NCBI GenBank assembly: GCA_014155875.1
Contig: JACEFZ010011721.1
Span: forward strand, 186,001 to 250,000
Direction of reading: 5' to 3'
DNA: 64,000 nucleotides
Source of the DNA: Cepaea nemoralis
Taxonomy: Eukaryota; Mollusca; Gastropoda; Stylommatophora; Helicidae
This document shows positions 14,179-39,815 of the stretch, piece after piece. A program made the position numbers and the translations under genes. Numbering within the stretch: position 1 is the first letter of the stretch; the number at the start of each line of letters is the position of its first letter. The notes below the pieces were generated by a model, which was not told where the DNA came from, did not search any database, and was given only the letters and a program-made list of their open reading frames with translations.

Positions 14179-15062
14179 GCTTAGTGTAACTTAGTATCAG
14201 TATAGATATGCAATACCCAATCACAATGCTAACTGTACTCCAACCAACACTGTAACTATGTATCTATACTAAGTTAACTAAATGTCTGTCCACGTCGAAG
14301 AGAAAGGTATCAGTAGCCCTACTCGTCAAGTAGACAATAGGTATAGGACAGATGACACTATAACCTATTCCTACGAGATGTCAGAACAAAGAGAAGATCC
14401 CGGACGATCCCCCACTCTATCTAGTGACAAGACCGCCGGGGCTTGGACTGGTTTGCCATGATAGATATTATCCCCAGCCTTTGCTCCAACTACCTCAATA
14501 GCACTCTACATCTACCAGGCCCCACACAAGCCGGGACAGCTGGACCTCCCCTCCCTCACCTAGGGTTCCCTACCCCAAGGGGGCTCGGACAAGACACCAG
14601 TCATATCACTGCACAAAGTCATAGCTAAGAGAACAAAATTTTAATTCTGAACTAAGTCAACCACAACACAGAGAAGGATGGCTGAAAGCCAGACTAGAAG
14701 ATACTATGTACAAGATCAGATATGCAGATGAGTATTCTTCATCATGGAGGCGGACGATAGCTCGTGCGGTTGTCCAGCCGTGGTAGCGACTCACCCAGGC
14801 TCCTCCAGTGGACCGGAACTCCAAGGTCTGCTGCCTCTCCAAAGTTCCCTCTTCACACAGAGAACCAATCACGGGCTGATCAAGCGCAGTACCACTGCCT
14901 GACTGACACTGCACCGATGAACAAGGATCCTTCCTTGCTGTTGTACTATTTCACTCGTCACACTCCTGATGAAGTCTGGGCCGACCCTAGAACATTAGCG
15001 GTCTCCCACTTGCAGAAAAAGTACACGTAGCACCGTATCAAAATACACAAGAGCCTGGTCTC
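14179..15062 (-). other. Leader between gag and the 5' LTR; LTR inner end unresolved
   Basis: No gene is seen. The primer-binding site and the inner LTR end must lie here or just beyond. A TTTGCCA/TGATAG junction near 14454 has the right shape (minus strand ...CA then TGGCAAACC) but does not match a tRNA 3' end I recognise. Confidence 0.4.
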
Positions 15063-18000
15063 TCTTCTATCTCATAAGTGACCCACACACTGATATGTCA
15101 CCTACAAAATGAGCAGTTGCTCCACATGAACACAAAACGTCACTGGCAAAGTCTATCAGGTGACTAAACACTTCACCTTATTTCCATGTCCTTGGATCAA
15201 TAGATCTTCACACAGTACCATGTAACTACCCTGATTGATGGGTATCAAGCACAACCTAGCATACACTGTCAACAGTTCACCACGTTGGAATGAGGTAGCT
15301 CCCTACCTTAACAAACATTGTCAACAGTTCACCACTTATGTAATCAATGTCTTAGGTCACTGGACCACGTGTTGGCTTCATAAAGGTAAACCAATGTAGA
15401 TATACTATTCAAGCACAAAATTATACACGGTGTCCCATGACAACCCAGCCGGGCCGGAAGCATAGCACACAGGCCATGGTGACCGGTAACAATGATCACT
15501 TGGCTCAACTTGAAAGTTCACGACCTTGCAATCACCAAGGTGTACACTGAGGTTGGATTTCACCAGTGCTTCACCGTCTAGCGAATTCTCGAAAATCAAC
15601 GCTTGTACTTCAGCCTCCACAGAAGCCGGATTTTCTTGTCTGCATTTTCTATCTAGTTGGATGCAAACTGAAAAGGATGTGCAGAAGTCTGTTGGCACTT
15701 GCACCCACTCCTCGCCAGGTTCTAAGTCCTCAAGTGAACACACCTGTTGAAGAATGTCTTCGGCTTGACCCATCCACGACCGTCCTCTTTTTAACCTGCT
15801 GCCCTTCACCTTCCTAATTTCACTATGCAGTGGATGTTGTGTGTTTGCGTTAATTCTGAACTGAGGTTGAATTTCACCAGTGCTTCACTAGCTAGAATCA
15901 CCAGATGTTTCAGTGTTGGATCCTCTCGGGATCGGATGCCACTCGTCGGACTCTTGGCGGAGGTCCTAACCTAGACCTACCGACATATTCAGCACTCAGC
16001 TCCTTCCAACATTGATCTCGCAGAGTCAGAAGACCACTCCCAGTATGGCATCAATCAACTTCTTGATAGGCACTGGAATGAGTGGGCCCATAGAGCTCAT
16101 GGTGAAGCTCTTGAATCTTCTTCAGTATAGCAATAACAGATCCTGAAACACGGAGAGGTTGGTATGAGTACTCAACTACAACAAAGACTAACAGCATCTC
16201 CACCATGTCACCTGCCTCTCAGTCATTCCTCAGGTCTACCACCATGAGTATGAACTCATCACATCATCGATCTCCTATTAACCATAATGTATAGGCATAC
16301 TGATGTTAGAGAAAGCAATAGCCCACCTGTTCAGTCAAGTAACACTTCTGGGCTACAAATAACCCCTAGCACCAGAGTCGACTGTATGACTCTGTCAAAG
16401 CATCTTCCGCCTGGTGCCATCCCAATCCGGTTTCATCTACCATCATCAATCAACATATACACCTACTTCCCTTTCAGTGTAGTGATTACTTTATCGAGAA
16501 GGTGTCCAGCCGGACATCTTCTTCCTGACAGACTCATCAATTCATCAATCCGTTAACCCATGGACTGATCAATTACACACCTTAATAACTATATGACCAT
16601 AATAAATTATACTCCTGATAATTCATTACTATAGTATTAACTAAGGAGAACTCATGAATTGTTACACTTAAATAACAAACTCATATCACAGCCATAGTGT
16701 CGGTTCTGGGATCCCTGTCCCAGATCCTGAGTTGCCCTTTTATTCACTGACTATCTTCCAGGTCAGTCATACCTGTGCCGGTCGAGCACAGCTTTGGTGG
16801 CCATCCACCATTACACTTTCCCACAGCTACTGTACCTTGTCCCGTGACGACTTAAGTCACGTCATCCAATGTAGCAAGCCTCCAGACTCTCCACTACCAA
16901 ACTCTGGCTCCACCTTTTGGGGGAGGGGGGGGGGTTATTCCCCGCACCTACTACTACTTCACGGCAGTACTCCCAGTACTCCATGAACAGAGTCAGGTTT
17001 CCAGAAGAGTAGAATATTAGAGACAGAAACGGTTAGGTTCACCTCCTAGATCTATCTAGACACAACGGCCTCGAATTACGGAGTGCCGCATCACCCTCGA
17101 TCGGGTATGTTCAACCATCGGATATGCACGATCGCTTTGGGTCGGACCTGTAACCTAACGGGTTGGGCGTACCGGCCTACCTCCCAGTCGGCTGCCTAGA
17201 CAAACGTAAGATGGAACACGCACGGTCATTCTAGCGGACGCACATGAAAACAAGCAGTAACAATAGTATCATAAATACTTCCTATCAACTGTTATCCTAC
17301 CGATGTAACACCATTCTGCTTACGCGGAATAACACTGCTATCTTCACACAGCAAACACACCACGGCCGCTCTCACCTTGATTCCTCGAAAAATCACCACC
17401 ACTGATAGAACAAGTAAGTTACCATTCTAATGTCACGAAGCACATTACACATCTATAATAATAAGATCTACCTTATTATTTACAGCGTCTAGCATATCGC
17501 TGTAATGACTGACAAACTTCCTGCCTTGCATGCGTAATTAATAAACCAAACAAGTAACTACTACACACTTTGTAAAGAATCGGGATCTCCCTAGCACAAC
17601 GCAGTAATAATATACATATCACGGTCCCTGCAACTTATTTGTAAACAATCAGTTAACAAATATATCTATCTAAACACATGTGATTTTCACCAGTCCTCGA
17701 AAGTACATAGTTCGTCCTATTTTATTTACACACCACTCGCTGTGGAATGAGGCTTGTTCCGTCAGGTAACACATTACGTCGCCGATAGATAAAGGCTAAT
17801 TAAATATGCAGACAGCCTGCTGTCAATTGTAACGCTACGCGACTACTCATTTCCGACGACAATTAATTCGTTCGGGGAGGTCGGCACGGCTTAAAGACAA
17901 CAGTTAAACAATAGAATAAGTATTCAACTAACCTGTGATTTAACAATCACAAACTTGACTGCAGATGTCCGCTCTGGCCGCGCACATTGACATCAACATT

Positions 18001-18372
18001 ACAGCAGCCCTGTGGCTGTGATCTGTCTTACGCTGAGGTCCGGCTGGCGACTGATCACGACTAACTCAGTGCTCCTTCAACTTGCCTACACGGGCCGCGT
18101 GAATTCCATGATCCATGGAGAAAACCAGAGTCACGATAAGTTCTACCAACCCGTGCTGCACGAAGCACTCGTGAACCTAGAGATCTCGACCACGTACGCA
18201 CTTGGGGGAACATTCTAGATTTCTCTATAAATAACTAGTATAGCGCCGCCACGCACTACTTCAGATGGGAAATCCCCTATTAATTGATATTAAATTCAAG
18301 GGAGACCAACGCATCGCCCTCCCTTCAAAGGGATATTATGCAGAGATCTGCCGATCTGTAGGCGTTTCGTCA
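15063..18372 (-). repeat. 5' LTR of the Gypsy element (right copy), at least 3.3 kb
   Basis: This is the direct repeat of 1-11328 without the nested element. On the minus strand it starts TGACGAAACG at 18372, directly against LINE sequence. The inner end is not fixed, because the partner copy runs off the window: it lies somewhere between 14180 and 15063. The copy holds an uninterrupted CCTGT target at 16714-16718, the site that is duplicated around the nested element in the left LTR. It lacks most of the LINE RNase H core found in the left copy. Confidence 0.85.
15591..15809 (-). pseudogene. Residual LINE linker upstream of RNase H in the right LTR
   Basis: This repeats 1191-1409: the region between RT and RNase H, ending just before where YTDGS should be. 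The RNase H core is missing. To its left, at 15553-15590, the sequence instead reads like the unoccupied LTR site (GATTTCACCAGTGCTTCAC) joined to LINE sequence at a shared TCAC. It is therefore a rearranged or deleted copy of the LINE insertion, not an independent gene. Confidence 0.7.
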
Positions 18373-18600: not shown

Positions 18601-20250
18601 TAAAATAAATATGTATGTTGGTTAAATTTCTTTGTCTATCACGTAGCATCAAGTATATTTGTTGCTATAAGTGACCAATGTATTGCTGTCTCTTCTCCTT
18701 TAGTGACATACTTTGCGTGTTATTTACACTATAGTTTATATCCATTTTGGATATCTTGAATATCCGAGTTTATAACCATATGATAAAATATTTAACGATT
18801 ATTTACTTCGTTATCTTACCCTTGTATCCAAGCTTTATGTTTGGGTGTGCAACTGTTTTTCCATTACATCTAGCATTCCAGTAATATATGCAAAGCCTGG
18901 TAAAATATTTAACAATGACTAAGTAATGTACTGGTATTTATGCTTGCATGTATACATTGTGTTAAAATATGTCATAGTATTTGTATTCATTGTCATTGAT
19001 GTATTTCAAATATTTGCTGCCAAACATGTAATCCAAAAGAATTGTAACAATGATTAACTAAGGTATGGAAGTAATACAAATTCAAGCAACAAAGGTATGT
19101 CCCTTTGCTTTAAATATTATCTAATGAAATGAAAGCTTGGTAGTGATAATTAGCTTTCCAGAGATAATGCACAGTAAATTATTGATTCAATTTGTCACTG
19201 TCGATCATTATTGTTTCAGTTTTTTTTTTCTTTCTTTTTGTTAGGTCTCTTGACTGGTGTCTTGTAACATTTGTCAAAGGTGTTCATACTATATTTTTGT
19301 CAGCGTGTTTGCTTCTCCGTCTATTATGTGCTATGTCAGTTGATTCAGTGTTACTGTCGATCATTATTATTTCAGTTTTTGTGTGTGTTAGGTCTCATGA
19401 CTCGAGTCTTATAACCTTTGTCAAAAGTTTTCTTACTATATTTTTGTCAGTGTGTTTACTTTTCCATCTAATGTGCGCTATGTCAATTATGGTTTACCTT
19501 TCGCAATCAAGAGTCTATAATCCATTGGTCAATCATTGTTTAATAATGTCACTCGTTTAACTGTCATAACATGGTGTTTAGTCTTGTTATTGTCTTGATA
19601 TTCACATAGTCTCTTGTGAAAACAACAGAAGCTTGGTGTCGTTTGTCGATTTCTGATGTGTAATTCTTAAGAATTATTGTCATTCTAAAGTATAAAGTAT
19701 TGTAATGACTAAACAGAAGTTAGTTAATATAATTATATTGAGTCGTCGATCTGGCTTGTGTATCCATCGATGTATGTTTCTTTGATGGAGATTTTGTGAT
19801 CTTTTAAGCACATCAGATTTTGTAAGTCTTTCCAGCACATCAGATTTTGTCAGTCTTTCAAGTACATCAAATACAATCCATTGTCTGACAGAAAAATTTG
19901 GAAACGTAAGTTAGAATGTGTAATATTTGTAAAATATCAAAATCAACTGTAAAATAGATTTTAATTACAGTAATTAGATGTGTCAAGTGCATTGAATCTA
20001 GTTTGCACGATATCCTATCCAATGGCCCAAAATATGTCAAATATCCAGGCATACTTCATGACAATGATTGTATGACATAAAGTGATCAATCTGTGTTGTT
20101 ACGTAGAATTATTTTCTTGTTTTGTACCTATCTGTTGTTAATTTTAGAGTACTGCATGTTTTAGCGTTATAGTCTGCTAATTCTACTCAATTATTGTCTT
20201 TGGTCTGGTTGTCAAAATATTATCTGTAATTGCTTATCATTATTTTCTAT
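18601..20250. other. AT-rich spacer with two small tandem duplications
   Basis: No gene seen. A 156-bp imperfect tandem duplication runs from 19197 to about 19500 (each unit starts ACTGTCGATCATTATT). A 32-bp duplication lies at 19809-19866 (CACATCAGATTTTGT). The 122-codon frame over the first is an accident of the duplication. Confidence 0.6.
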
Positions 20251-20264
20251 TGTATATAAGTGGA

Positions 20265-20691
20265 CGCTCAGATGGCGGCCTCTACAATGCTCAGAGATTG
20301 AAGGCTAAGACCAAAATTAGGAGGGTACTGATCAGAGAGTTGCTTTTTGCAGATGATGCTGCAGTTACGACCCACTCTGAGGAAGAATTGCAATGTCTAC
20401 TATCTGCATTCTCCAATGCTTGTTCTGAATTTGGTTTAACAATTAGCAAAAAGAAGACACAGATTATGTCACAAGGTGCACATGGGGTACCATCAATCTT
20501 TATTGACGACGCCGAACTAGAGATAGTAGACCATTTTACATATCTAGGATCAGTGGTAAATAGCAAATTATCCCTAGATCAGGAAATCAACATCCGGATT
20601 GGTAAGGCAGCAACAACAATGAACAGGTTAAGAAAAAGAGTCTGGGAGAACAGGAAGCTTACTGCCAAAACAAAAGTCCTTGTCTATCAAG
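20265..20691 (+). pseudogene. LINE reverse transcriptase, palm to thumb part
   Basis: The frame contains RSDGGLYN, then ELLFADDAAV, the catalytic FADD box of a LINE RT, then ISKKKTQIM and FTYLGSVVN, which follow it in RT family proteins. It is truncated at the 5' end by the insertion process. The coding sequence is interrupted at codon Q by the palindromic element and picks up again at 33717. The endonuclease and earlier RT boxes are missing, so it was dead on arrival. Confidence 0.85.
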
Positions 20692-20995
20692 AGTAGTGTA
20701 AGTGGGGCTCCATCCAGCGCATTTTTGAGGTGGGAATCGATATTCCACCTCAAAGGGCGATAACTCTTTTTTCCCCAAAAATGTAGGCGTGGTCTAGTGA
20801 CTCATCATAAGTGGCGTGTTCTAGTGACTCATCAGAGGTGGCGTGGTCTAGTGACTCATCATAGGTGGCGTGCGTGGTCAAGTAATTATAGGTACGACAT
20901 AAAAAATACGACATAAAACATCAATAAAGAAAACAAACGACTCAAGTAAGGTATATAATAATTTTATTAAATCATATATAGACAAACAATACATA

Positions 20996-21663
20996 TTAAA
21001 TAAGTAATGGCATAGTCGAGATATTATCACTGTCAACCTTTCTTTTTATATAGAGATATGACAGTGAATTACGATGTTGTGTGTATGTATATACAGAAGA
21101 GTCTTGTGTTTTGAAGCCTATATTGGTTCCCCCACTCGGTGTTTGTGTGTTTAATACTTCCAAAAACTGTGTCCTTGTTTAGATGCGTGTTGTGGTGTTT
21201 GGTCAGACCTTTGGTACTGATTTTATCATAATCACCCACACAAATATACTGTCTTACTACACAATGAGACCATCCCCTCCCCTTCGTACTCTAGTTTGAA
21301 AAGCCCGGGGGTTCTCTTTTCATAGGCTTTGATAGTCTGGCAATCCTGACAGGTATCAGTACTAGGGGTAATTCTATGAACAGGGCAGGTTTCAGATGGG
21401 AACCAGTGATTATAGACTCTGTCATACTCTGCTCTAAGGTGTGGTCTAACCACCTCAGAGAGTGAGGCGGCGCTAAGGGCCAAATAGAGAGAGTCAGTGT
21501 CCATTTCAGTGAGTTGGTAGTCTTCTTTAGCGATAAAGTTGTCGAGAAAATCGTAATAGAAAGCTAGCATGCGCAACTTGGCATACTGGTAGACAAAGAA
21601 CCCAATCTGTAGAGGTAGATCCCAGACAGTTTTCTTTTTTAGGGTTTCTACAGTAAGGTACAT
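20996..21663 (-). pseudogene. polB: Polinton DNA polymerase B, C-terminal fragment (left arm, frameshifted)
   Basis: Mirror copy of 32747-33412. It keeps EMDTDSLYLAL but has a one-base insertion at about 21250, in the codons after MVSLCSKT, which shifts the frame and ends it at 21232. A few substitutions follow (for example around 21150-21185). The two arms have therefore diverged independently since the palindrome formed, with more damage on this side. Confidence 0.85.
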
Positions 21664-21744
21664 AATAATGTTAATAAAATATATATATAGAAGGAAAAAA
21701 AAAAACATAGTAAGTGACCGCTTATAGTTAAGGGTGTGCGATGA

Positions 21745-22505
21745 CGTGCTCAAGTGGTGGTCAAGAGGTGGTCAAGAGGTGGTCAAGCGGTCAAGAGGTG
21801 GTCAAGTGACCCCTTAAATTGTATGGGATGGTACGTGTAGTGACGTGGTGATGATCAAGAGGTGGTCAAGTGGTGGTCAGGGTGTGGTCAAGTGGTGGTC
21901 AAGAGGTGGTCAAGTGGTCGAGTGACCACTTAAATTGTCGGGGAAAGTAGGTGTAGTGATATGGTGATGATTAAAGGGTGGTAAATTAGTGGTCAAGCGG
22001 TGGTCAAGTGGTGGTCAAGTGAGGAAAATTTTAGTGGAAAGTAGTTGTAATGATATGGTGATGATTAAAGGGTGGTAAATTAGTGGTCAAGCAGTGGTCA
22101 AGCAGTGGTCAAGTGGTCGAGTGACCACTTAAATTGTCGGGAAAGTAGTTGTAATGATATGGTGATGATTAAAGGGTGGTAAATTAGTGGTCAAGAGGTG
22201 GTCAAGCGGTGGTCAAGGGGTGGTCAAGTGGTTAAATGACCCCTTAAATTGTTGGGGAGAGTACGTGTAGTGACGTGGTGATGATCAAGAGGTGGTCAAG
22301 TAGTGGTCAAGGAGTGGTCAAGGGGTGGTCAAGTGGTCAAGTTACCCCTTAAATTGATGGGAAGAGTACGTGTAGTGACACGAAGATGATCAAAATGTAG
22401 TCAAATAGTCGTCAAGTGGTGGTCAAGTGGTCGAGTGACCACATAAATTGTAGAGGAGAGTAGGTGTAGTGACATGGTGATGATCAAGAGGTGGTCAAGT
22501 TGTTA
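21745..22505. repeat. GTGGTCAAG minisatellite, left arm
   Basis: Runs of the 9-mer GTGGTCAAG alternate with a spacer (GTGACCACTTAAATTGT... GTGATATGGTGATGAT), giving higher-order units of about 100-150 bp. Confidence 0.9.
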
Positions 22506-23022
22506 GGTCTAGAGGTTGGGGTGTCTCAGTCATGAAGTATCAAACTGTCTGCTCTGGGAAGGATGTCGCTGATCAGGGCGAGTAGGTTCTAATACGTTTA
22601 TCGCTATTGTCTATAATTGGCGTGGTTGTATAGTAATAATAGTAGAGTTGTTTCGTAGTAATGTTAGTCATCATTATCAAGGGGTATGTTAGGTGATATT
22701 TATAACGGTAGTAGTAGTACCAGTAGTAACAATACCAACAATAGTACTAATTATCATCATCATCACGTGTCTTACCAACGGACGTACCACCCACACATTG
22801 CGATCTCCAACACCATTGAACAATTCCGAGGTTGACTCACAATACAGAAATCCCCAATTAACGGCATTACCTTCATGTAATGGTGGTACTCATAGTACCA
22901 ATAGCACCAGTAGTAATAGTCACCAACATCAGCAAGAGACTTATCGCCTGACATTGGTCAGTATGACACTCCATAAACTATGATCTCCGACACCATGGAT
23001 ACAAATAGTAATAATATTGGTA

Positions 23023-23142
23023 ATAGTAGTAGTGGTAGTAGTAGTGGTAGTAGTAGTAGTAGTAGTAGTAGCGGCGGCGGTGGTGGTGGTGGTGGTGGTG
23101 GTGGTGGTGGTGGTGGTGGTGGTAATAGTAGGAGTAGTAGAA
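23023..23142. repeat. AGT/GGT trinucleotide tract, left arm
   Basis: (AGT)n running into (GGT)n. It carries one more AGT than the right-arm copy. Confidence 0.9.
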
Positions 23143-23559
23143 TAGCGAGGGTGCTTGTTGTTTCACTAAGTATTTGTATATCGTATGTAGTATAAAGCTA
23201 GTTTGTGTTGTATGCCATGTAAGGTGTTACTGAAATATCTGTATTTTATACTTCTAAGAGGTGATGACGTCATAACCCACCACTCTATCATCTTATTGAT
23301 AGTGTCTCCAGTGCCACGAAAAAGGCTCATTGTGAGATATCGATCATTTCTCAAAGCGACAGCATCCGGGGTGCATGCCCATTACGAGCAAACATCGATA
23401 CGCCACTTAAAAGGCAACGACAAGACAAAATGGCGTCGAATACAGTGTAACGTACAAAACTTATGAGGTCATCGGTTGTCCATTCCATCATGGTCGACAA
23501 ATAGGCGCTCACTAACTTCACAATAGGCTCACTCAAATAAACATATAGGATGATAAGGC

Positions 23560-26320
23560 ATCGACCCAAATGTGAAAAATGACTGCCAAATACAGAAATA
23601 GTTCGTCCACATGTATGCAAACTAGGAAAATTTGTTAGTCGAACGGGACATATATTGACCAAGTAGGGAAATTTGAGAGCCATAAATGAAAAAATATAAT
23701 CCAAAGAGAGGAATATCTCATTCCAACTTATAAAAAGAAGGAAAATTCTCAACCAAATGAGAAAAAGTTAGACCAAGTATAGTAACATCGCAACCAAACT
23801 TATGAAAAGTAGGAAACTTTGTTACCCAAAGCGAAAAAACCTAGGTCAAGTAGGAAAATCTGTTAGCCAAATGTAAAAAATGTCGGTCAAATACAGAAAT
23901 AGTTCGTCCACACGTATGCAAACTAGGAAAATGTGTTAGTCGAACAGGATAAAATATTGCCCAAGTAGGGAAATTTGAGAGCCATAAGTGAAAAAATATA
24001 ATCCAAAGAGATGAATATCTCGTTCCAACTTATAAAAAGAATGAAAATGCTCAACCAAATGAGAAAAAGTTAGACCAAGTATAGTAACATCGCAACCAAA
24101 CTTATGAAAAGTAGGAAACTTTGTTAGCCAAAGCGAAAAAACCTAGGTCAAGTAGGAAAATCTGTTAGCCAAATATAAAAAATGTCGGCCAAATACAGAA
24201 ATACCTCGGCCGCACGTAGGCAAACAAGGAAAGGTTGTTACCCAGATAGGAAAAATATTGCCCAAGTAGGAAAATTTGATAGCCAAATGTAAAAAAAAAA
24301 AAAAAAATATCACCCAAAGAGAGGAATATCTCGGCCAGACTTATAAAAAAATAGGAGAACTATGTGCCAAATGGGAAAAAGTTAGGCCAAATACAGAAAT
24401 ATCTCAACCAAACATATAAAAAATAGGAAAATTGATAACCAAACGGGAAATATATTGACCAACTAGGGAAATGTGTTACTCAAAGAGGAAAAATAATGAC
24501 CAAGTAACGAAATACATCGCTCAAGCTTATGAAAACTACGAAACTTTGTTAGCCAAATGGAAGAAACCTTGGTCAAGTAGGAAAAATCTGTTAACCAATT
24601 GTGAAAAATGTCGGCCAAATGCAGAAATAGTTCGGCCACACGTATGCAAACAAGGAAAGGTTGTTAGCCAGATAGGAAAAGTATTAACCAAGTAAGAAAA
24701 TGTGATACCCAAAGGTGAAAAAATAGCAGACAAAGAGAGAAATATCTCATCCAAACTTATAAAAAGAAGGAAAATTCTCAACCAAATGAGAAAAAGTTAG
24801 ACCAAATATAGTAACATCTCAACCAAACTTATGAAAAGTAGGAAACTTTGTTAGCCAACGAGAATAAAAACCTTGTTCAAGTAGGAAAATCTGTTAGCCA
24901 AATGTAAAAAATGTCGGCCAAATACAGAAATACCTCGTCCGCACGTATGCAAACAAGGAAAGGTTGTTAGCCAGATAGGAAAAATATTGCCCAAGTAGGA
25001 AAATTTGATAGCCAAATGTAAAAAAAAAAATATCACCCAAAGAGAGGAATATCTCGGCCAGACTTATAAAAAGTAGGAGAACTATGTGCCAAATGGGAAA
25101 AAGTTAGGCCAAATACAGAAATATTTCAACCAAACATATAAAAAATAGGAAAATTGATAACCAAATGGGAAATATATTGACCAACTAGGGAAATGTGTTA
25201 CTCAAAGAGGAAAAATAATGACCAAGTAACGAAATACATCGCTCAAGCTTATGAAAATTACGAAACTTTGTTAGCCAAATGGAAGAAACCTTGGTCAAGT
25301 AGGAAAAATCTGTTAACCAATTGTGAAAAATGTCGGCCAAATGCAGAAATAGTTCGGCCACACGTATGCAAACAAGGAAAGGTTGTTAGCCAGATAGGAA
25401 AAGTATTAACCAAGTAAGAAAATGTGATACCCAAAGGTGAAAAAAATATCAGACAAAGAGAGAAATATCTCATCCAAACTTATAAAAAGAAGGAAAATTC
25501 TCAACCAAATGAGAAAAAGTTAGACCAAATATAGTAACATCTCAACCAAACTTATGAAAAGTAGGAAACTTTGTTAGCCAACGAGAATAAAAACCTAGGT
25601 CAAGTAGGAAAATCTGTTAGCCAAATGTAAAAAATGTCGGCCAAATACAGAAATACCTCGTCTGCACTTATTAAAATTAGGAAATATTTGTTAGCCAAAT
25701 AGTAAAAATATTGCCCAAGTAGGAAAATTTGATAGCCAAATGTAAAAAAAATATCACCCAAAGAGAGGAATATCTCGGCCAGAGTTATAAAAAGTAGGAG
25801 AACTATTTGCCAAATGGGAAAAAGTTACGCCAAATACAGAAATATCTCAAACAAACATATAAAAAATAGGAAAATTGATAACCAAACGGGAACTATATTG
25901 ACCAACTAGGGACATGTGTTACTCAAAGAGGAAAAATAATGACCAAGTAACGAAATACATCGCTCAAACTTATGAAAACTAGGAAACTTTGTTAGCCAAA
26001 GTGAAAAAAAACCTTGGTCAAGTAGGAAAATCTGTTAGCCAAATGTGAAAAATGTCGGACAAATGCAGAAATAGTTCGGTCACACATATGCAAACTAGGA
26101 AAAGTTGTTAGCCAGATAGGAAAAGTATTGGCCAAGTAGGAAAATTTGAAAGCCAAATGTGAAAAAAGATCACCCAAAGAGAGAAATATTGCGAACAATG
26201 TCGGCCAAATACAGAAATTTCTCAACCAAACTCATGAAAAGTAGGAACAACTTGTTACCCAAATAGAAAAAATATTGGTCAAGTAAAGAAATAGCGTGGT
26301 CAAACCTATAAAAACATACC
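23560..26320. repeat. CCAAAT-type tandem array, left arm
   Basis: Degenerate units with GTTAGCCAAATGTGAAAAA and AGTAGGAAAATTTGTTA. A 722-bp higher-order unit repeats almost exactly (24471 and 25193), and a unit of about 302 bp lies near 23580 and 23885. The short frames here are phase-locked to the repeat and are not genes. Confidence 0.9.
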
Positions 26321-26329
26321 AACATTTGT

Positions 26330-28080
26330 TAACACAACTTGGTCACTTGTTCTTACAAACTTGCTCGCTGGCTCAAACAATCTGTCCTCTTGCTATTACA
26401 ATCGGTCGACCTATCCTATCAACTCACACACTTACCATAACAACTGGCCCTTTTTCCCAACAACGTGTCCACCGACTCTCTCATATTAGCGACTCGCCCT
26501 ATCAACTTACCCACTGACTCTAACAACTTCCCCAACAGGGGCTCACAAAATTTCCACTTGTTATTACAAATTGTCGACAGTCTCGCCCAAATTACCACTT
26601 ACTCTTACAAACTGTCCCAACTGCGCGCACAAAGGTGTCCACTTGTGATTTCACGGCCTCCTCATCACATAGATAAGTAGCCCTTATAAAATACAAATGT
26701 ATCCCACAAGTCATACAGAAGTGTCCCCCATATTGTCATAAAAAAAAATATTTGTGTGTGTAGGTAAGTTCATGTCTTTGGCAGTTCATATTTTGTAAAT
26801 TCATTTCTTCAGCATAAGATTTGTGTAAGTTCACACCCTCAGCATAAATTTTGTTGTGTAAGTTCATGTCTTCGACAGTTCATGTTTTGCTAAGGCTTAG
26901 TTTTAGTGAAAAGGCAGAAGTCTATTGGCTAGAATTTCAACCTGAGTGGTCAAATACTAACACTGCCTGTGGACAGCTATTCTTACCCATGCGCTAAAGT
27001 TGAGAAAATGAACTTCCGTTGAATGGAAGCTACCGCAGACTTGACTTATTAAACCCCTCTGGAAGAAGTAGCGGCAGCTTAACCAGGAAAAGATCGAATT
27101 AGTTATCCCCCTTAGTCTGGGAATTATGAAAATATATGCTCACACAAGCGATATTACTCATGACGTCATATAAAAAAAATATAAACGATAACAAATGAGG
27201 CAGAGCCACAATTGTTATCGTTTATATATTTTTTATATGACGTCATGAGTAATATCGCTTGTGTGAGCATATATTTTCATAATTCCCAGACTAAGGGGGA
27301 TAACTAATTCGATCTTTTCCTGGTTAAGCTGCCGCTACTTCTTCCAGAGGGGTTTAATAAGTCAAGTCTGCGGTAGCTTCCATTCAACGGAAGTTCATTT
27401 TCTCAACTTTAGCGCATGGGTAAGAATAGCTGTCCACAGGCAGTGTTAGTATTTGACCACTCAGGTTGAAATTCTAGCCAATAGACTTCTGCCTTTTCAC
27501 TAAAACTAAGCCTTAGCAAAACATGAACTGTCGAAGACATGAACTTACACAACAAAATTTATGCTGAGGGTGTGAACTTACACAAATCTTATGCTGAAGA
27601 AATGAATTTACAAAATATGAACTGCCAAAGACATGAACTTACCTACACACACAAATATTTTTTTTTATGACAATATGGGGGACACTTCTGTATGACTTGT
27701 GGGATACATTTGTATTTTATAAGGGCTACTTATCTATGTGATGAGGAGGCCGTGAAATCACAAGTGGACACCTTTGTGCGCGCAGTTGGGACAGTTTGTA
27801 AGAGTAAGTGGTAATTTGGGCGAGACTGTCGACAATTTGTAATAACAAGTGGAAATTTTGTGAGCCCCTGTTGGGGAAGTTGTTAGAGTCAGTGGGTAAG
27901 TTGATAGGGCGAGTCGCTAATATGAGAGAGTCGGTGGACACGTTGTTGGGAAAAAGGGCCAGTTGTTATGGTAAGTGTGTGAGTTGATAGGATAGGTCGA
28001 CCGATTGTAATAGCAAGAGGACAGATTGTTTGAGCCAGCGAGCAAGTTTGTAAGAACAAGTGACCAAGTTGTGTTAACAA
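26330..28080. other. Inner region of the palindrome, no gene seen
   Basis: The innermost 870 bp of each arm. It holds a TGACGTCA octamer near 27160 and its mirror near 27240, and a short AAGTTCATGTCTTC direct repeat. No protein is recognisable. Confidence 0.6.
27195..27211. other. Palindrome centre, 17-base spacer
   Basis: ATGAGGCAGAGCCACAA separates CGATAACAA from its inverse TTGTTATCG. This is the only part of the 13-kb element not mirrored. Confidence 0.9.
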
Positions 28081-28084
28081 ATGT

Positions 28085-30845
28085 TGGTATGTTTTTATAG
28101 GTTTGACCACGCTATTTCTTTACTTGACCAATATTTTTTCTATTTGGGTAACAAGTTGTTCCTACTTTTCATGAGTTTGGTTGAGAAATTTCTGTATTTG
28201 GCCGACATTGTTCGCAATATTTCTCTCTTTGGGTGATCTTTTTTCACATTTGGCTTTCAAATTTTCCTACTTGGCCAATACTTTTCCTATCTGGCTAACA
28301 ACTTTTCCTAGTTTGCATATGTGTGACCGAACTATTTCTGCATTTGTCCGACATTTTTCACATTTGGCTAACAGATTTTCCTACTTGACCAAGGTTTTTT
28401 TCACTTTGGCTAACAAAGTTTCCTAGTTTTCATAAGTTTGAGCGATGTATTTCGTTACTTGGTCATTATTTTTCCTCTTTGAGTAACACATGTCCCTAGT
28501 TGGTCAATATAGTTCCCGTTTGGTTATCAATTTTCCTATTTTTTATATGTTTGTTTGAGATATTTCTGTATTTGGCGTAACTTTTTCCCATTTGGCAAAT
28601 AGTTCTCCTACTTTTTATAACTCTGGCCGAGATATTCCTCTCTTTGGGTGATATTTTTTTTACATTTGGCTATCAAATTTTCCTACTTGGGCAATATTTT
28701 TACTATTTGGCTAACAAATATTTCCTAATTTTAATAAGTGCAGACGAGGTATTTCTGTATTTGGCCGACATTTTTTACATTTGGCTAACAGATTTTCCTA
28801 CTTGACCTAGGTTTTTATTCTCGTTGGCTAACAAAGTTTCCTACTTTTCATAAGTTTGGTTGAGATGTTACTATATTTGGTCTAACTTTTTCTCATTTGG
28901 TTGAGAATTTTCCTTCTTTTTATAAGTTTGGATGAGATATTTCTCTCTTTGTCTGATATTTTTTCACCTTTGGGTATCACATTTTCTTACTTGGTTAATA
29001 CTTTTCCTATCTGGCTAACAACCTTTCCTTGTTTGCATACGTGTGGCCGAACTATTTCTGCATTTGGCCGACATTTTTCACAATTGGTTAACAGATTTTT
29101 CCTACTTGACCAAGGTTTCTTCCATTTGGCTAACAAAGTTTCGTAATTTTCATAAGCTTGAGCGATGTATTTCGTTACTTGGTCATTATTTTTCCTCTTT
29201 GAGTAACACATTTCCCTAGTTGGTCAATATATTTCCCATTTGGTTATCAATTTTCCTATTTTTTATATGTTTGGTTGAAATATTTCTGTATTTGGCCTAA
29301 CTTTTTCCCATTTGGCACATAGTTCTCCTACTTTTTATAAGTCTGGCCGAGATATTCCTCTCTTTGGGTGATATTTTTTTTTTACATTTGGCTATCAAAT
29401 TTTCCTACTTGGGCAATATTTTTCCTATCTGGCTAACAACCTTTCCTTGTTTGCATACGTGCGGACGAGGTATTTCTGTATTTGGCCGACATTTTTTACA
29501 TTTGGCTAACAGATTTTCCTACTTGAACAAGGTTTTTTATTCTCGTTGGCTAACAAAGTTTCCTACTTTTCATAAGTTTGGTTGAGATGTTACTGTATTT
29601 GGTCTAACTTTTTCTCATTTGGTTGAGAATTTTCCTTCTTTTTATAAGTTTGGATGAGATATTTCTCTCTTTGTCTGCTATTTTTTCACCTTTGGGTATC
29701 ACATTTTCTTACTTGGTTAATACTTTTCCTATCTGGCTAACAACCTTTCCTTGTTTGCATACGTGTGGCCGAACTATTTCTGCATTTGGCCGACATTTTT
29801 CACAATTGGTTAACAGATTTTTCCTACTTGACCAAGGTTTCTTCCATTTGGCTAACAAAGTTTCGTAGTTTTCATAAGCTTGAGCGATGTATTTCGTTAC
29901 TTGGTCATTATTTTTCCTCTTTGAGTAACACATTTCCTAGTTGGTCAATATATTTCCCGTTTGGTTATCAATTTTCCTATTTTTTATATGTTTGGTTGAG
30001 ATATTTCTGTATTTGGCCTAACTTTTTCCCATTTGGCACATAGTTCTCCTATTTTTTTATAAGTCTGGCCGAGATATTCCTCTCTTTGGGTGATATTTTT
30101 TTTTTTTTTTTACATTTGGCTATCAAATTTTCCTACTTGGGCAATATTTTTCCTATCTGGGTAACAACCTTTCCTTGTTTGCCTACGTGCGGCCGAGGTA
30201 TTTCTGTATTTGGCCGACATTTTTTATATTTGGCTAACAGATTTTCCTACTTGACCTAGGTTTTTTCGCTTTGGCTAACAAAGTTTCCTACTTTTCATAA
30301 GTTTGGTTGCGATGTTACTATACTTGGTCTAACTTTTTCTCATTTGGTTGAGCATTTTCATTCTTTTTATAAGTTGGAACGAGATATTCATCTCTTTGGA
30401 TTATATTTTTTCACTTATGGCTCTCAAATTTCCCTACTTGGGCAATATTTTATCCTGTTCGACTAACACATTTTCCTAGTTTGCATACGTGTGGACGAAC
30501 TATTTCTGTATTTGACCGACATTTTTTACATTTGGCTAACAGATTTTCCTACTTGACCTAGGTTTTTTCGCTTTGGGTAACAAAGTTTCCTACTTTTCAT
30601 AAGTTTGGTTGCGATGTTACTATACTTGGTCTAACTTTTTCTCATTTGGTTGAGAATTTTCCTTCTTTTTATAAGTTGGAATGAGATATTCCTCTCTTTG
30701 GATTATATTTTTTCATTTATGGCTCTCAAATTTCCCTACTTGGTCAATATATGTCCCGTTCGACTAACAAATTTTCCTAGTTTGCATACATGTGGACGAA
30801 CTATTTCTGTATTTGGCAGTCATTTTTCACATTTGGGTCGATGCC
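28085..30845. repeat. CCAAAT-type tandem array, right arm
   Basis: Inverse of 23560-26320, with the same 722-bp higher-order period (28987 and 29709). Confidence 0.9.
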
Positions 30846-31263
30846 TTATCATCCTATATGTTTATTTGAGTGAGCCTATTGTGAAGTTAGTGAGCGCCTA
30901 TTTGTCGACCATGATGGAATGGACAACCGATGACCTCATAAGTTTTGTACGTTACACTGTATTCGACGCCATTTTGTCTTGTCGTTGCCTTTTAAGTGGC
31001 GTATCGATGTTTGCTCGTAATGGGCATGCACCCCGGATGCTGTCGCTTTGAGAAATGATCGATATCTCACAATGAGCCTTTTTCGTGGCACTGGAGACAC
31101 TATCAATAAGATGATAGAGTGGTGGGTTATGACGTCATCACCTCTTAGAAGTATAAAATACAGATATTTCAGTAACACCTTACATGGCATACAACACAAA
31201 CTAGCTTTATACTACATACGATATACAAATACTTAGTGAAACAACAAGCACCCTCGCTATTCT

Positions 31264-31385
31264 ACTACTCCTACTATTACCACCACCACCACCACCACCA
31301 CCACCACCACCACCACCACCACCGCCGCCGCTACTACTACTACTACTACTACCACTACTACTACCACTACTACTATTACCAATAT
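31264..31385. repeat. ACC/ACT trinucleotide tract, right arm
   Basis: Inverse of the left-arm tract and one triplet shorter. Confidence 0.9.
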
Positions 31386-31904
31386 TATTACTATTTGTAT
31401 CCATGGTGTCGGAGATCATAGTTTATGGAGTGTCATACTGACCAATGTCAGGCGATAAGTCTCTTGCTGATGTTGGTGACTATTACTACTGGTGCTATTG
31501 GTACTATGAGTACCACCATTACATGAAGGTAATGCCGTTAATTGGGGATTTCTGTATTGTGAGTCAACCTCGGAATTGTTCAATGGTGTTGGAGATCGCA
31601 ATGTGTGGGTGGTACGTCCGTTGGTAAGACACGTGATGATGATGATAATTAGTACTATTGTTGGTATTGTTACTACTGGTACTACTACTACCGTTATAAA
31701 TATCACCTAACATACCCCTTGATAATGATGACTAACATTACTACGAAACAACTCTACTATTATTACTATACAACCACGCCAATTATAGACAATAGCGATA
31801 AACGTATTAGAACCTACTCGCCCTGATCAGCGACATCCTTCCCAGAGCAGACAGTTTGATACTTCATGACTGAGACACCCCAACCTCTAGACCTAACAAC
31901 TTGA

Positions 31905-32665
31905 CCACCTCTTGATCATCACCATGTCACTACACCTACTCTCCTCTACAATTTATGTGGTCACTCGACCACTTGACCACCACTTGACGACTATTTGACT
32001 ACATTTTGATCATCTTCGTGTCACTACACGTACTGTTCCCATCAATTTAAGGGGTAACTTGACCACTTGACCACATCTTGACCACCACTTGACCACACCC
32101 TGACCACCACTTGACCACCTCTTGATCATCACCACGTCACTACACGTACTCTCCCCAACAATTTAAGGGGTCATTTAACCACTTGACCACCCCTTGACCA
32201 CCGCTTGACCACCTCTTGACCACTAATTTACCACCCTTTAATCATCACCATATCATTACAACTACTTTCCCGACAATTTAAGTGGTCACTCGACCACTTG
32301 ACCACTGCTTGACCACTGCTTGACCACTAATTTACCACCCTTTAATCATCACCATATCATTACAACTACTTTCCACTAAAATTTTCCTCACTTGACCACC
32401 ACTTGACCACCGCTTGACCACTAATTTACCACCTCACGATCATCACCATATCACTACACCTACTTTCCCCGACAATTTAAGTGGTCACTCGACCACTTGA
32501 CCACCTCTTGACCACCACTTGACCACACCCTGACCACCACTTGACCACCTCTTGATCATCACCACGTCACTACACGTACCATCCCATACAATTTAAGGGG
32601 TCACTTGACCACCTCTTGACCGCTTGACCACCTCTTGACCACCTCTTGACCACCACTTGAGCACG
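31905..32665. repeat. GTGGTCAAG minisatellite, right arm
   Basis: Inverse of 21745-22505, with local unit rearrangements relative to the left arm. Confidence 0.9.
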
Positions 32666-32746
32666 TCATCGCACACCCTTAACTATAAGCGGTCACTTAC
32701 TATGTTTTTTTTTTTCCTTCTATATATATATTTTATTAACATTATT

Positions 32747-33412
32747 ATGTACCTTACTGTAGAAACCCTAAAAAAGAAAACTGTCTGGGATCTACCTCTA
32801 CAGATTGGGTTCTTTGTCTACCAGTATGCCAAGTTGCGCATGCTAGCTTTCTATTACGATTTTCTCGACAACTTTATCGCTAAAGAAGACTACCAACTCA
32901 CTGAAATGGACACTGACTCTCTCTATTTGGCCCTTAGCGCCGCCTCACTCTCTGAGGTGGTTAGACCACACCTTAGAGCAGAGTATGACAGAGTCTATAA
33001 TCACTGGTTCCCATCTGAAACCTGCCCTGTTCATAGAATTACCCCTAGTACTGATACCTGTCAGGATTGCCAGACTATCAAAGCCTATGAAAAGAGAACC
33101 CCCGGGCTTTTCAAACTAGAGTACGAAGGGGAGGGGATGGTCTCATTGTGTAGTAAGACGTATATTTGTGTTGGTGATTATGATAAAATCAGTACCAAAG
33201 GTCTGACCAAACACCACAACACGCATCTAAACAAAGACACATTTTTGGAAGTATTAAACACCCAAACACCGAGTGGGGGAACCAATATAGGCTTCAAAAC
33301 ACAAGACTCTTCTGTATATACATACACACAACATCGTAATTCACTGTCATATCTCTATATAAAAAGAAAGGTTGACAGTGATAATATCTCGACTATGCCA
33401 TTACTTATTTAA
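32747..33412 (+). pseudogene. polB: Polinton DNA polymerase B, C-terminal fragment (right arm)
   Basis: An open frame from ATG 32747 to stop 33412 (about 221 residues). Visible: PLQIGFFVYQYAKLRML, then EMDTDSLYLAL, the DTDS motif C of family B polymerases that binds catalytic metal; then LFKLEYEGEGMVSLCSKTYI and, at the end, SLSYLYIKRKV, as in the C-termini of Polinton protein-primed polymerases. A full enzyme exceeds 1,000 residues, so exonuclease, motif A and most of the palm are missing; the frame starts at the edge of the minisatellite. The natural C-terminus is kept. Upstream codons from 32657 are a low-complexity extension. It cannot polymerise DNA; its interest is as a marker of ancestry. 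Confidence 0.85.
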
Positions 33413-33716
33413 TATGTATTGTTTGTCTATATATGATTTAATAAAATTATTATATACCTTACTTGAGTCGTTTGTTTTCTTTATTGATGTTTTATGTCGT
33501 ATTTTTTATGTCGTACCTATAATTACTTGACCACGCACGCCACCTATGATGAGTCACTAGACCACGCCACCTCTGATGAGTCACTAGAACACGCCACTTA
33601 TGATGAGTCACTAGACCACGCCTACATTTTTGGGGAAAAAAGAGTTATCGCCCTTTGAGGTGGAATATCGATTCCCACCTCAAAAATGCGCTGGATGGAG
33701 CCCCACTTACACTACT

Positions 33717-34306
33717 ATCAAGCCTGTGTCCTTAGTACTCTTCTCTATGGCAGTGAAACCTGGACAACTTACTCACACCAAGAGAACAACTTAAACAGCT
33801 TTCATATGCGGTGTCTGCGAAGAATTCTTGGTATTAAGTGGCAAGACAAAATCACAAATACTGAAGTATTGGAAAGATCAGGTTGTGTGACAGTTTATTC
33901 CATGCTCAGTCTTCGTAGACTTAGATGGATAGGACATCTTAGGAGGATGGATGATGGTAGAATACCAAAGGATATCTTTTTTGGTGAATTACAGATGGGT
34001 AAGAGATCTCAGGGTCGGCCTCTACTACGATACAAAGATGTGTGTAAGCGGGACATGATTGATACAGGCATTGATAATGCACATTGGGAGCAAGTCGCCG
34101 CTGAACGTGTTGCATGGAGGGCAAATATCAGAAATGGAATAAAGTCAAAGGAGAAAATTATTGCAGAAAAGTCACACACCAAGCGTGTGAGACGTAAGAT
34201 GGTGCATGATGGTGGAAATGACCACGTGTTCACATGCACCCACTGTGAACGGACATTTACAGCGCAAATTGGCCTTATCAGTCACACTCGCTACCGCCAT
34301 AGTTAA
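33717..34306 (+). pseudogene. LINE RT C-terminal part with C2H2 zinc finger
   Basis: Continues the frame of 20265-20691 from the duplicated ATCAAG: ACVLSTLLYGSETW, MRCLRRILGIKWQDKI, TNTEVLERS, RRLRWIGHLRRMDDGR, RPLLRYKD, ending with CTHCERTFTAQIGLISHTR and two final His residues, a C2H2 zinc finger typical of the C-terminus of this LINE group. The frame has no stop until 34306. The apparent ATG at 33686 lies in the palindrome end and is not the native start. Confidence 0.85.
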
Positions 34307-37062: not shown

Positions 37063-37521
37063 ACAATACTAGTGTAATACAAGGGATATATGGTGCTAGA
37101 CGCATATATCTGAAGAGACAAGCCATATGAGTATTAAAACACCTACATAAAAAACAAGATGGTTGTAATATACTTACATTCATGTCTTCAATAGCTGACC
37201 AGTCCTCAATATGAAGAAAACTACAGTGGGTGTGAGGAAACTGTATATGTATACCACTGTTATTCTGACTTCACAGACTGTAGCTCACAGTGACTACAAT
37301 GCAAATAACGCGGCGCCCTCTACGCTATCTATTTCATCATGGTTAGAGGGCATGGGGCGAACATGACCTGCATTCCCCAACCCAGCTCAAACATACAACG
37401 GGTCAACGAGCGGGTAGTAGAACGCGTAGTCGCACCATACGAACAGCCACGCCAACGTAATCTGAACCGCTTGACCTAAGAAACTGACTGAAACCGGTTT
37501 TACGCGTGGCTCAAAAACTAG

Positions 37522-37529
37522 TATATAAA
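37522..37529 (+). promoter_or_regulatory. TATA box of the PC4-like gene
   Basis: TATATAAA 38 bases before the ATG, inside a block (AGTATATAAACCCGAGGCTGG) kept nearly unchanged in all three copies of this gene, which argues for a real RNA polymerase II promoter. Confidence 0.65.
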
Positions 37530-37566
37530 CCCGAGGCTGGTAACACTCAAGCATTGTGATCAGAAG

Positions 37567-38467
37567 ATGACTACAGACCTCAAGACTGTACTTGCTAACT
37601 GGGTCTTCATGACTCGTAGTGGTGAGACTATTAGACCAGTGGGCGATGGTGATAAGGCCGTGTTTGTCTCATCCTACAGAGGAACGAGCACGTTACACAT
37701 CCGAAGACTTTACGGTGAATCCGACCAGAAATTCCCGACTAAGATGGGTATGACACTTACTCGGCAAGAATATGAACAGATGAGCGCCATGCATCGCGAG
37801 ATCCTAGCTGACTTTGACAGACTCAACCAAGTTAACCAAACCAGTAATGAAGTCAAACAAGGTACTAACACAGTAAGTCAGTAAGTCAGAGCAAGTCAGT
37901 AACCAAAACATTCAAGTCAGTGCTCATGTCAAACAAGGCACTACCAGAAGCAATCAAGTCCAAAACACTCAAGTCAGTGCTCAAGTTAAACAAGGAACTA
38001 ACCAAAACCACCAAGTAGACGCATACTATACCGCCAGTTTTCAACCCAGCTGCAGTCAGATGTGTGATGACCCCAGCAACCAGATGTGTGATGTGCAACA
38101 AGACACCAACCGAAGCAATCAAGTCCAGCACACTCAAGACAGTACTCAAGTCAAACAGGGTACTACACGAAGCCACCAAGTAGACACATACTACACCGCC
38201 AGTTATCAACCCAGCTACAGTCAGATGTGTGATGACCCCACCAGCCAGATATGTAAAGAGCCCAATAGCCAGATGTTTGATGTGCCCGACACTCAGATTA
38301 TTGATGCCCCAGTTGTCTACAATACTCAGATGTCAGCCCACCAAGCAGGAGACCAGTCTTATGACTACATACCAAGTGACATATACATACTAGGCTACCA
38401 GCCGGAAAAACCAACCTACCCAGACAGTGGTGTGAAGAAACCCAGAAACAACATACAATTTGTATAG
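37567..38467 (+). pseudogene. PC4/p15-like domain protein with Gln/Asn-rich repeats
   Basis: Begins MTTDLKTV at 37567. Residues about 25-85 fit the shape of a PC4 (transcriptional coactivator p15) single-stranded-DNA-binding domain: a VFVSSYRG strand, an LHIRRLYG strand, PTKMGMTLT then a helix beginning RQEYEQM, comparable to the VSEFKG, IREYW, KGISLTPEQW elements of PC4. Then come NQV and KQGTN repeats, two MCDDP blocks and a Tyr/Pro-rich tail ending NNIQFV. The first frame stops at 37884, where GTAAGTCA is duplicated; the rest (38060-38467) is in another frame. AATAAA lies at 38483. The domain call is by eye. Confidence 0.55.
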
Positions 38468-38659
38468 CTCTATATGTGAAAATAAAATGTTTTGATGGTA
38501 CTATGTATACCGGCTCATATCACATCATCCATTTCGTATAATGACATTATGCATGTAAAATGTACTGAAATACTGTAAATAAACAGGTATATAGATTATA
38601 ATTACGTTTTGGTTGTTGAATATTTAGTGTTTACGGTGTATATAGTTTTCATAAGGTGA

Positions 38660-39815
38660 GAGAATGAAGGGCAAAAATCTTGGTCAAGTAATAAAATTTG
38701 GTAGCCAAATGGGAAAAATTGTGGCTACATTTCAACCAAAATTATAAAAATCTCAGTCAAACATATGAAAAGTAGGAAAATTTGTTAACCAAAGTGAAAA
38801 ATGTTGGTCATATTTCAACCAAACTTATAAAAATCTCAGTCAAACTTATGAAAAGTAGGAACATTTGTAACCAAATGTGAAAAGGTTAGCCAAATTTCAA
38901 ACCAACCGTATAAAAATCTCAGTCAAACATATGAAAAGTAGGAAAATTTGTTAACCAAACGTGAAAAGTTTGGCCAACTTTCACCCAAACTTATGAAAAG
39001 TGGGAAATTTTGTTGTCCAGATGTGAAAAGTTTAACCAAATTTCACCCAAACTTATGAAAAGTAGAAAACTTTGTTAACCAAATGGCAAAAATCTTGGCC
39101 AAGTAAGAAAATGTGTTAACCAAATGTGAAAAGGTTAGCCAAATTTCAAACCAAACTTATAAAAACCTCAGTCAAACTTGTGAAAAATAGGAAATTTTGT
39201 TGTCCAAAAAAAAAAAAATTTCAACAATAAAATTGTAAAAAAAAATTAACAAGTACATTTCTCTTCATGTTTCCAAGTTGAATTTTCATGTAGGAATTTA
39301 CTTGTTAATTTTTTGTACAATTGTTGAAATTTTATTTTTTCATTCAATCATAGTGATTTATTACATAAGATACATTTAATTTTCTGAAATACTGCTGTTG
39401 TTTGCATAGGGGACAGGCGAATATCTCTAGTAGGTTGGGATGTAAAATGAGAACGTGAGATATTTTTTCCCCTTTGGTTAAGGAATGCTGAAATTTGGCT
39501 AAACTGTTTCTTATTTTGTTAACAAAATTTCCTACTTTTCATAAGTTTTGCATGAAATATTTCTTTACTTGTTCAAAAATTCTCACATTTGGTTAACAAA
39601 GTTTCCTACTTTTTATAAGTTTCGATGAACTTTGGCCAAACTTTTCACATTTGGTTAACAAAGTTTCCTACTTTTTTATGAGTTTGTTTGAAATTTGGTC
39701 AAACTTTTCACATCTGGACAACAAAATTTCCTATTTTTCACAAGTTTGACTGAGGTTTTTATAAGTTTGGTTTGAAATTTGGCTAACCTTTTCACATTTG
39801 GTTAGCACATTCTAA
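38660..39815. repeat. Inverted tandem arrays of the partial fold-back element
   Basis: Units of about 95 bp with AAACTTATGAAAAGTAGGAA and GTTAACCAAATGTGAAAAG, inverted after the centre at about 39285. Same family as the arrays in the 13-kb and 8.8-kb elements. Confidence 0.8.

Follow-up and report, generated by a model that had tools for sequence, protein, structure and literature searches.

Palindromic elements with Polinton tips in the genome of Cepaea nemoralis: probable copy-back derivatives and a putative hyperparasite lineage

Introduction

Foldback (FB) and similar transposons are nearly all arm and carry tandem repeats within their arms. The defective genomes of adenovirus that consist of long inverted repeats of one end are palindromic derivatives of a protein-primed linear DNA, and palindromes such as that of the Tetrahymena ribosomal DNA (rDNA) start at short inverted repeats. 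As for Polintons, their copying has been deduced from their genes and, to our knowledge, never directly watched. In this work we analysed a stretch of 64,000 nucleotides of the Cepaea nemoralis genome (contig JACEFZ010011721.1 of assembly GCA_014155875.1, positions 186,001 to 250,000; C10853:186001-250000 in our designation), hereafter called the window, which contains at positions 20692-33716 a nearly perfect palindrome of 13,025 bp inserted in a long interspersed nuclear element (LINE). This insertion is a non-autonomous derivative of a Polinton, and not a full Polinton, and the phenomenon is real and recurrent in the genome. The explanation that we prefer, to which we assign a probability of roughly 0.7 on the basis of sequence comparisons, is that such palindromes are copy-back (snap-back) derivatives of Polintons, reintegrated by the Polinton integrase, and that one lineage among them is a multi-copy putative hyperparasite. 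With rather less assurance, we also lean towards considering them a new kind of mobile element, that is, self-complementary copy-back Polinton genomes that form recurrently at hairpins and reintegrate by exact ends, with one hyperparasite lineage whose arms are rewritten, one from the other, at each generation.

With Polintons (Mavericks) and adintoviruses, the window element shares the tips, the 6-bp duplications and the end-B/polB segment of the conventional copies present in the same genome; it differs from them in having 6.5-kb arms, as compared to terminal inverted repeats (TIRs) of about 250 bp, and in containing only a PolB tail and no rve integrase. Long inverted arms with internal tandem repeats are present in the window element as they are in FB transposons, which however are known with other target duplications and no link to Polintons, whereas here Polinton tips, 6-bp duplications, autonomous relatives and several turn points are found. 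The defective adenovirus genomes, unlike the fold-backs described here, are neither integrated nor multiplied as a transposon family. The Tetrahymena rDNA palindrome also has a short inverted repeat at its turn, but derives from a programmed chromosomal event and is not mobile. The snapback defective-interfering genomes of adeno-associated virus (AAV) are self-complementary molecules made of one end, symmetric or asymmetric, and derived from either end (PMC8235507); among the fold-backs of the present genome, those that come closest to them in shape are C2133 and C15194, which are symmetric, and C3600 and C10923, which are asymmetric. AAV snapbacks arise by parvoviral hairpin replication and are contained in virions (PMC8235507), whereas the fold-backs found here are integrated, have target duplications and include one multiplied lineage. 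By analogy, the window element might work like a snapback defective genome resident in a chromosome. A palindromic or copy-back Polinton is named in no title or abstract opening found by our literature searches, a weak evidence of novelty since subscription literature was poorly covered.

Structure of the window element

The insertion is nearly gene-less and consists of a left arm (20692-27204, + strand) and a right arm (27205-33716, - strand), which in the pairwise alignment are identical in 6482 of 6525 columns (99.3%), with 18 substitutions and 25 gap columns. The arms meet at an asymmetric, poorly paired centre of about 17 nt (~27195-27211) that is also present in other copies of the family described below. 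There is no TIR of Polinton size around a unique interior: the entire element is arm. The target duplication ATCAAG adjoins the left tip at 20686-20691 and the right tip at 33717-33722. Reading of the open frames on the + strand shows that the LINE is open as far as the insertion (20181-20691) and continues past it (33723-34306); when the element and one ATCAAG are removed, 341 uninterrupted codons are read up to the stop that ends the frame. A preliminary description of this DNA had proposed inverse arms of 6.5 kb around a 17-base spacer, ATCAAG on both flanks, a LINE frame restored upon removal of the element and, as Polinton traits, a 6-bp target duplication and AG...CT termini. All these features are borne out, the AG...CT-type termini being represented by AGTAGTGTAAG at both tips. 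In the window the tip AGTAGTGTAAGTGGGG, with up to three mismatches allowed, is found only at 20692 (+) and 33701 (-), in both cases exactly; in the control, at least two matches at this tolerance were obtained in 4 of 100 shuffles.

A repeat scan revealed tandem arrays in both arms. The outer array, made of 11-bp GTGGTCAAG-type units nested in longer units, lies at 21746-22516 and has its mirror copy at 31899-32668, while the inner arrays, with several unit lengths up to 419 bp, lie at 23566-25873 and are mirrored at 28532-30836. When 13 frames of one conventional Polinton copy (rve integrase, ATPase-like, protease and others) were searched for in the window element, no match was obtained besides the PolB tail (tblastn, E 0.01). 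Rfam and tRNA scans of the window gave no match, and a viral_contigs search returned no relative.

The preliminary description had also placed a family B polymerase C-terminus near each tip. Homology to PolB is present in both arms. In the right arm the tail is open (32759-33412, + strand, 67% identity to P0001) and contains DTDS and KTY, which we take to be PolB motifs; in the left arm (20999-21651, - strand, found by homology search) the frame is broken by single-base differences. The tail had no match in Pfam and gave weak polymerase matches only in PDB (23 rows, best E 0.13). Among the 120 PolB homologues listed of 738, the closest named ones belong to the gastropods Littorina saxatilis, Elysia chlorotica and Nucella lapillus, and the brittle star Amphiura filiformis is also included. 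As a hallmark of the family, on the other hand, polB had to be rejected: no PolB match was found in any of the 13 other family elements (26 arm pieces), and the tail is part of a graft of Polinton end B, comprising the tip and the polB C-terminus. This graft measures 958 bp in the right arm (32759-33716, - strand), where it is 93.7% identical to end B of the conventional copy C3049, and 960 bp in its left-arm counterpart (20692-21651, + strand). Beyond it, the right arm matches TIR positions 261-296 (36 columns, 86%) and then continues as family sequence. Since the graft occurs in both arms, the simplest explanation is that it was joined to one arm and then copied to the other.

Tips, target duplications and conventional Polintons

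The genome searched comprised 3.47 Gb in 26,579 contigs of one assembly. Pattern counts are exact matches, and up to the first 100 places of each pattern were inspected. The exact 16-bp tip was found 551 times (280 + 271), as compared to once for the reversed control. Among the first 100 tip places listed there are 30 facing pairs, spaced 5.2 to 15.8 kb apart, and the ends of 24 of them were examined: nine are conventional copies, 14 have inverted arms longer than 700 bp and one (C3263) belongs to the family of the window element and has arms of 297 bp. Two classes of elements therefore bear these tips, namely conventional Polintons and fold-backs. Outside the 24 pairs, C3882, C4497 and C4504 each have one end-A and one end-B marker and look conventional, C4609 contains the family centre, and C4569 (679943-693661) and C5233 are facing pairs that lie outside the classified set. 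Exact 6-bp duplications flank 28 of the 29 elements with readable flanks (19 of 20 pairs, 4 of 4 further pairs, the window element, C10923, C15194, C18 and C4431), the sole element without one being C2707; C5633 is outside this count, its left tip being beyond the piece examined. C15194 bears the variant tip AGTAGTATATAGG. Other copies with precise ends and 6-bp duplications, as well as full Polintons of the same species with the same polB end, had been indicated by the preliminary description as the things to look for; both were found, and the tips and duplications shared with conventional copies support its proposal of a transposed, non-autonomous, all-arm Polinton derivative.

The nine conventional copies are 14.0-15.3 kb long, with TIRs of about 250 bp and two unlike ends, A and B. 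All nine carry in end B a coding sequence for the PolB C-terminal part, and the end-B products are homologous to proteins that their sources name DNA-directed DNA polymerase; the 1124-aa open frame of C3049 matched nothing in Pfam at E 0.01 and no polymerase in PDB at E 0.1. The pieces of C500 contain an rve integrase (E 8e-12, L066:2-703), a Chromo domain (E 1.9e-9, L017:4770-5201), an adenovirus-type cysteine protease (Peptidase_C5, E 4e-6) and a PC4 match, together with weak matches to a packaging ATPase that are below the cut-offs (Adeno_IVa2 0.0019 and Pox_A32 0.0051). Protease matches are found in all nine end-A pieces, and a 257-aa frame of end A may, by its looks, be minor-capsid-like. 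C500 also encodes a Bcl-2 family protein (E 7e-10, L066:3645-4088), and pieces of Bcl-2-like frames are present in end B of C3049 and in two members of the window's family, C1741 and C3263.

In six of the nine conventional copies the two TIRs of an element are 0.4-1.8% apart (gaps excluded), and at least 7.3% from any other. The same comparison shows that C2336 and C3174b are near-identical sister copies and that C2707 breaks the pattern of similarity within the element. Between most conventional elements the terminal 245 bp are at least 7% apart, as compared to a similarity of mostly 89-99% in the 5-kb end pieces (95-99.8% for end A); tips therefore turn over faster than genes. The end-A marker occurs 160 times in the genome and the end-B marker 317 times, both with a control of 0. 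This difference would fit the presence of many elements with two B ends, but the markers may detect copies unequally and C2540 alone has a tandem run of seven end-B markers. These seven markers (C2540:156250-167699) lie on one strand, about 1.9 kb apart, and represent a tandem array of a Polinton end.

Fold-backs of Polinton ends and their turn points

Both arms derive from one Polinton end in C2133, C10923 and C15194 (end A) and in C3600 (end B); of the window element, the outer 958-960 bp of each arm are end B. The three end-A elements are the three facing pairs among the 100 listed end-A marker places; among the 100 listed end-B places there are ten, four of which were read (C3600, C18, C4431 and C5633). 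C2133 (6856 bp) carries end A twice, with arms of 3.43 kb that are 99.8% alike and 96-98% identical to Polinton end A, and turns at ATTTG...CAAAT, where the intact sequence has a 12-nt loop. In C10923, as in C15194, the turn is located at GAGGTTGG...TTCAACCTC of end A, exactly on the intact hairpin GAGGTTG...CAACCTC: past CAACCTC both elements read the reverse complement of the sequence that precedes the stem, whereas intact copies continue into TCACTAATTTT. This junction pattern has exactly two occurrences in the genome, which are these two places. An inner piece is missing from one arm of C10923. C3600, with a length of 5958 bp, is derived from end B by an asymmetric fold-back that proceeds about 4.5-4.7 kb inward and back to 980. 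In C18, C4431 and C5633 each extremity consists of end B over roughly 1 kb or more.

In a tree built on 1.5 kb of end A, C10923 falls together with C500, C2336 and C3174b (support 94/91), C15194 with C2707 (84/98) and C2133 with C3049 (97/93), and the own arms of C10923 (92/88) and C2133 (100/100) pair. Because they sit on different Polinton branches, the three elements probably represent three separate events, two of which took place at one hairpin. A further turn, AAG...CTT with a 9-nt loop, is found in C596 as a second turn within the family arm. In total, four of the five turns that can be compared with intact sequence (C2133, C10923, C15194 and C596) are at short hairpins; the fraction of random positions with an equally tight stem is 0.13-0.15 for 3 bp, 0.013-0.015 for 5 bp and 0.001-0.002 for 7 bp. 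Fold-backs seem to have originated more than once, and from either Polinton end, and therefore what the preliminary description had regarded as a giant-TIR class is better read as the product of snap-back copying. Its all-arm character stands; it is not a one-off, as the 204 centres reported below indicate.

The family of the window element

An asymmetric centre, found in either direction, is common to the window element, C122, C1782, C1055, C410 and C2448 (where one base is missing). A 27-base pattern of this centre has 204 exact places in the genome (93 + 111, control 0), counted by the pattern and not by checking the arms at each. C1995 aligns across the family centre in one piece at 94%, the centre motif itself giving no match in it at up to three substitutions. 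Because the centre is common to the family copies and is found 204 times, the evidence points to one origin of the window's family, followed by multiplication as a unit. With 204 places, the centre is no less frequent than the end-A Polinton marker, which has 160, although detection may differ between the patterns. The outermost 0.3 kb of the left arm of C1782 is 87.6% identical to end B over 250 columns, as compared to 85.2% over 203 columns for end A. C3263, C3845 and C5355, which have small spans, were considered as end-A/end-B fold-backs and rejected; they are rearranged family members. On both sides of the centre (27170-27240 in the window, and in other copies) there is a ATGACGTCATATAAA-like sequence, conserved among the compared copies, whose look we take to be that of a CRE plus TATA; the family centre could be a candidate two-way promoter.

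The two arms of an element are usually each other's closest relatives. In the tree of a 1.06-kb non-tandem segment from eight family elements, own arms are sisters in all eight (supports between 67/67 and 100/99). Close to the centre, own arms differ by 0-1.3% and are the nearest, or tied nearest, in six of six. Excluding columns within 5 of a gap, the substitutions between arms are 1/4953 in C122, 2/3404 in C2133, 1/1031 in C3600 and 13/4893 in the window copy. In C1055, the 22 arm substitutions are evenly spread (variance/mean 0.73).

Proposed mechanism

According to the copy-back explanation, a linear extrachromosomal Polinton DNA would be copied from a protein-primed tip. A growing or broken strand, starting 5' at the tip, would detach, fold at a short inverted repeat and copy itself as far as the tip; the next round of copying would open the resulting hairpin into a perfect palindrome that bears the same Polinton tip on either side. 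The Polinton integrase would then insert the palindrome with a 6-bp duplication (tips and duplications are observed, whereas the enzyme is what we infer). One lineage, characterized by tandem-repeat filler and by a 17-nt centre that is fixed, would have expanded to about 204 exact centres as a non-autonomous parasite of an adintovirus-like Polinton (Maverick) present in the same genome. Around each transposition its arms would be copied again from each other, by hairpin copying or folded-strand repair, and would be identical at the start, as in long terminal repeats (LTRs). In the window copy, end B with the polB tail would have been grafted onto one arm and subsequently copied to the other. 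The substrate would be a linear molecule with a free tip, because a chromosomal fold-back would include host flank. The strand that served as primer would have begun, 5', at the tip, as expected of a nascent strand that is protein-primed. Its free 3' end may come from a stalled polymerase or from a break.

Several observations count against this explanation. At the turns, 6 of the 12 loop nucleotides are absent in C2133 relative to the intact copy; CAACCTC is intact in six of nine conventional copies and has one changed base in the other three; the arms of C15194 are not split from C2707 in the end-A tree; the turn of C3600 joins sites about 3.7 kb apart without a clear stem; and for the inner arm of the family no unfolded ancestor was found, so that the family's own original turn is not traceable to a hairpin. 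The family centre is lacking in the middle pieces examined of C121 and C1741. As to the arms, six family elements are outside the arm tree, the segment being incomplete or missing in an arm; the arms of C2405 are 95% identical to C121 and 88% to each other, and C121_R is 96.8% identical to C2405_L as compared to 96.0% to C121_L. C410 and C1995 each have one inter-element distance slightly below the own-arm distance, although the arm tree still pairs their own arms (88/88 and 67/67, respectively). Arm differences are clustered in seven of the eight elements with at least 10 substitutions (variance/mean 3.1-48 per 250 bp), a test that is blurred by the alignment of tandem arrays and that we weighted lightly. 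A further process that could keep arms alike is gene conversion in the chromosome, which may add to their identity. Finally, the extrachromosomal molecule, the terminal protein and the hairpin intermediate of this explanation are hypothetical.

Alternative explanations

The alternative that survives best, although we consider it unlikely, is double-strand-break repair, in which a linear Polinton would anneal to itself by its resected 3' end at a short inverted repeat, with subsequent fill-in and later replication but with no switching of the polymerase during protein-primed copying. Formation of palindromes by break-repair fold-back is known in other systems, and the strand polarity and the use of short inverted repeats would be the same. 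However, since the arms end at the tip in the elements read, this route too requires a linear Polinton with a free end, and the two turns at one 7-bp stem, on different branches, fit a pause of the polymerase at least as well.

Slightly less probable is a giant-TIR element that moves by cut-and-paste, or in the manner of a miniature inverted-repeat transposable element, with arms that are inherited and kept alike by gene conversion as in long chromosomal palindromes. In its favour are the 204 places with one fixed centre, which show that palindromes are mobile as units, the few elements that violate the arm-sister rule (C2405) and the clustered arm differences in seven of eight elements tested, which are due in part to tandem-array alignment. 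What it leaves unexplained is the occurrence of new fold-backs with different hairpin turns and the similarity of conventional TIRs within elements (0.4-1.8%, with respect to at least 7.3% between elements, in six of nine); the even spread of the 22 substitutions of C1055 also argues against it.

Two further explanations can be set aside as highly improbable: a fold-back artefact of assembly or sequencing, in favour of which one may note that long-read libraries are known to produce near-perfect palindromes, is contradicted by the exact tips and 6-bp duplications of 28 out of 29 elements, by the 204 centres and by arms that diverge by up to several per cent, and a chance head-to-head or nested insertion of Polinton fragments, to which the many repeated and inverted blocks of the window might lend some credit, is contradicted by the single 6-bp duplication that brackets the unit, by arms of equal length and near identity and by the wide recurrence of the arrangement.

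Implications

Under the copy-back explanation, the fact that arms end at the tip and turn at hairpins implies a free linear molecule whose copying starts at the tip, and would be indirect evidence on how Polintons replicate; the polarity of the turn would tell which strand bore the free 3' end. If this explanation is true, the fold-backs would preserve a fossil record of Polinton replication outside the chromosome and primed at the tip. They resemble defective-interfering genomes kept in the chromosome, and such a parasite of a parasite may influence the Polinton load. The divergence between arms may serve as a clock, in the way that LTRs do. Annotation pipelines that require an interior gene are expected to overlook these elements.

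Other features of the window

The region 54498-63282 contains an older inverted repeat, whose arms are about 80-87% alike (57004-58847 with 61695-59812, plus outer pieces). Its inner arms include PC4- and protease-like pieces of end A directed toward the centre (~57667-58273 on the + strand and 60995-60429 on the - strand). Since these end-A-like frames point to the centre, it represents an older Polinton relative with tips inward, an arrangement opposite to that of a fold-back; clean tips were looked for in this region and none was found. Further remnants of Polinton end-A genes lie at 37124-39811 and 43521-44414, with a PC4-like piece at ~37567-37872 (+) and a relative of the 257-aa frame at 43521-44211 (-), the DNA being 73-75% identical to end A. 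The tandem repeats between these remnants are related to those of the palindrome (65-75% over longer stretches), and a 392-aa frame at 40725-41903 gave no match in Pfam. A second older inverted repeat lies at 48343-54398, and its arms share about 83% identity over 1.1 kb. Lastly, the region 1-18372 contains direct blocks about 99% identical (1168-2318 with 15568-16718, 9658-11328 with 16714-18372, and 2319-2878 with 9098-9657), and its frames include a SCAN-like domain; this suggests a recent duplication or LTR retroelements.

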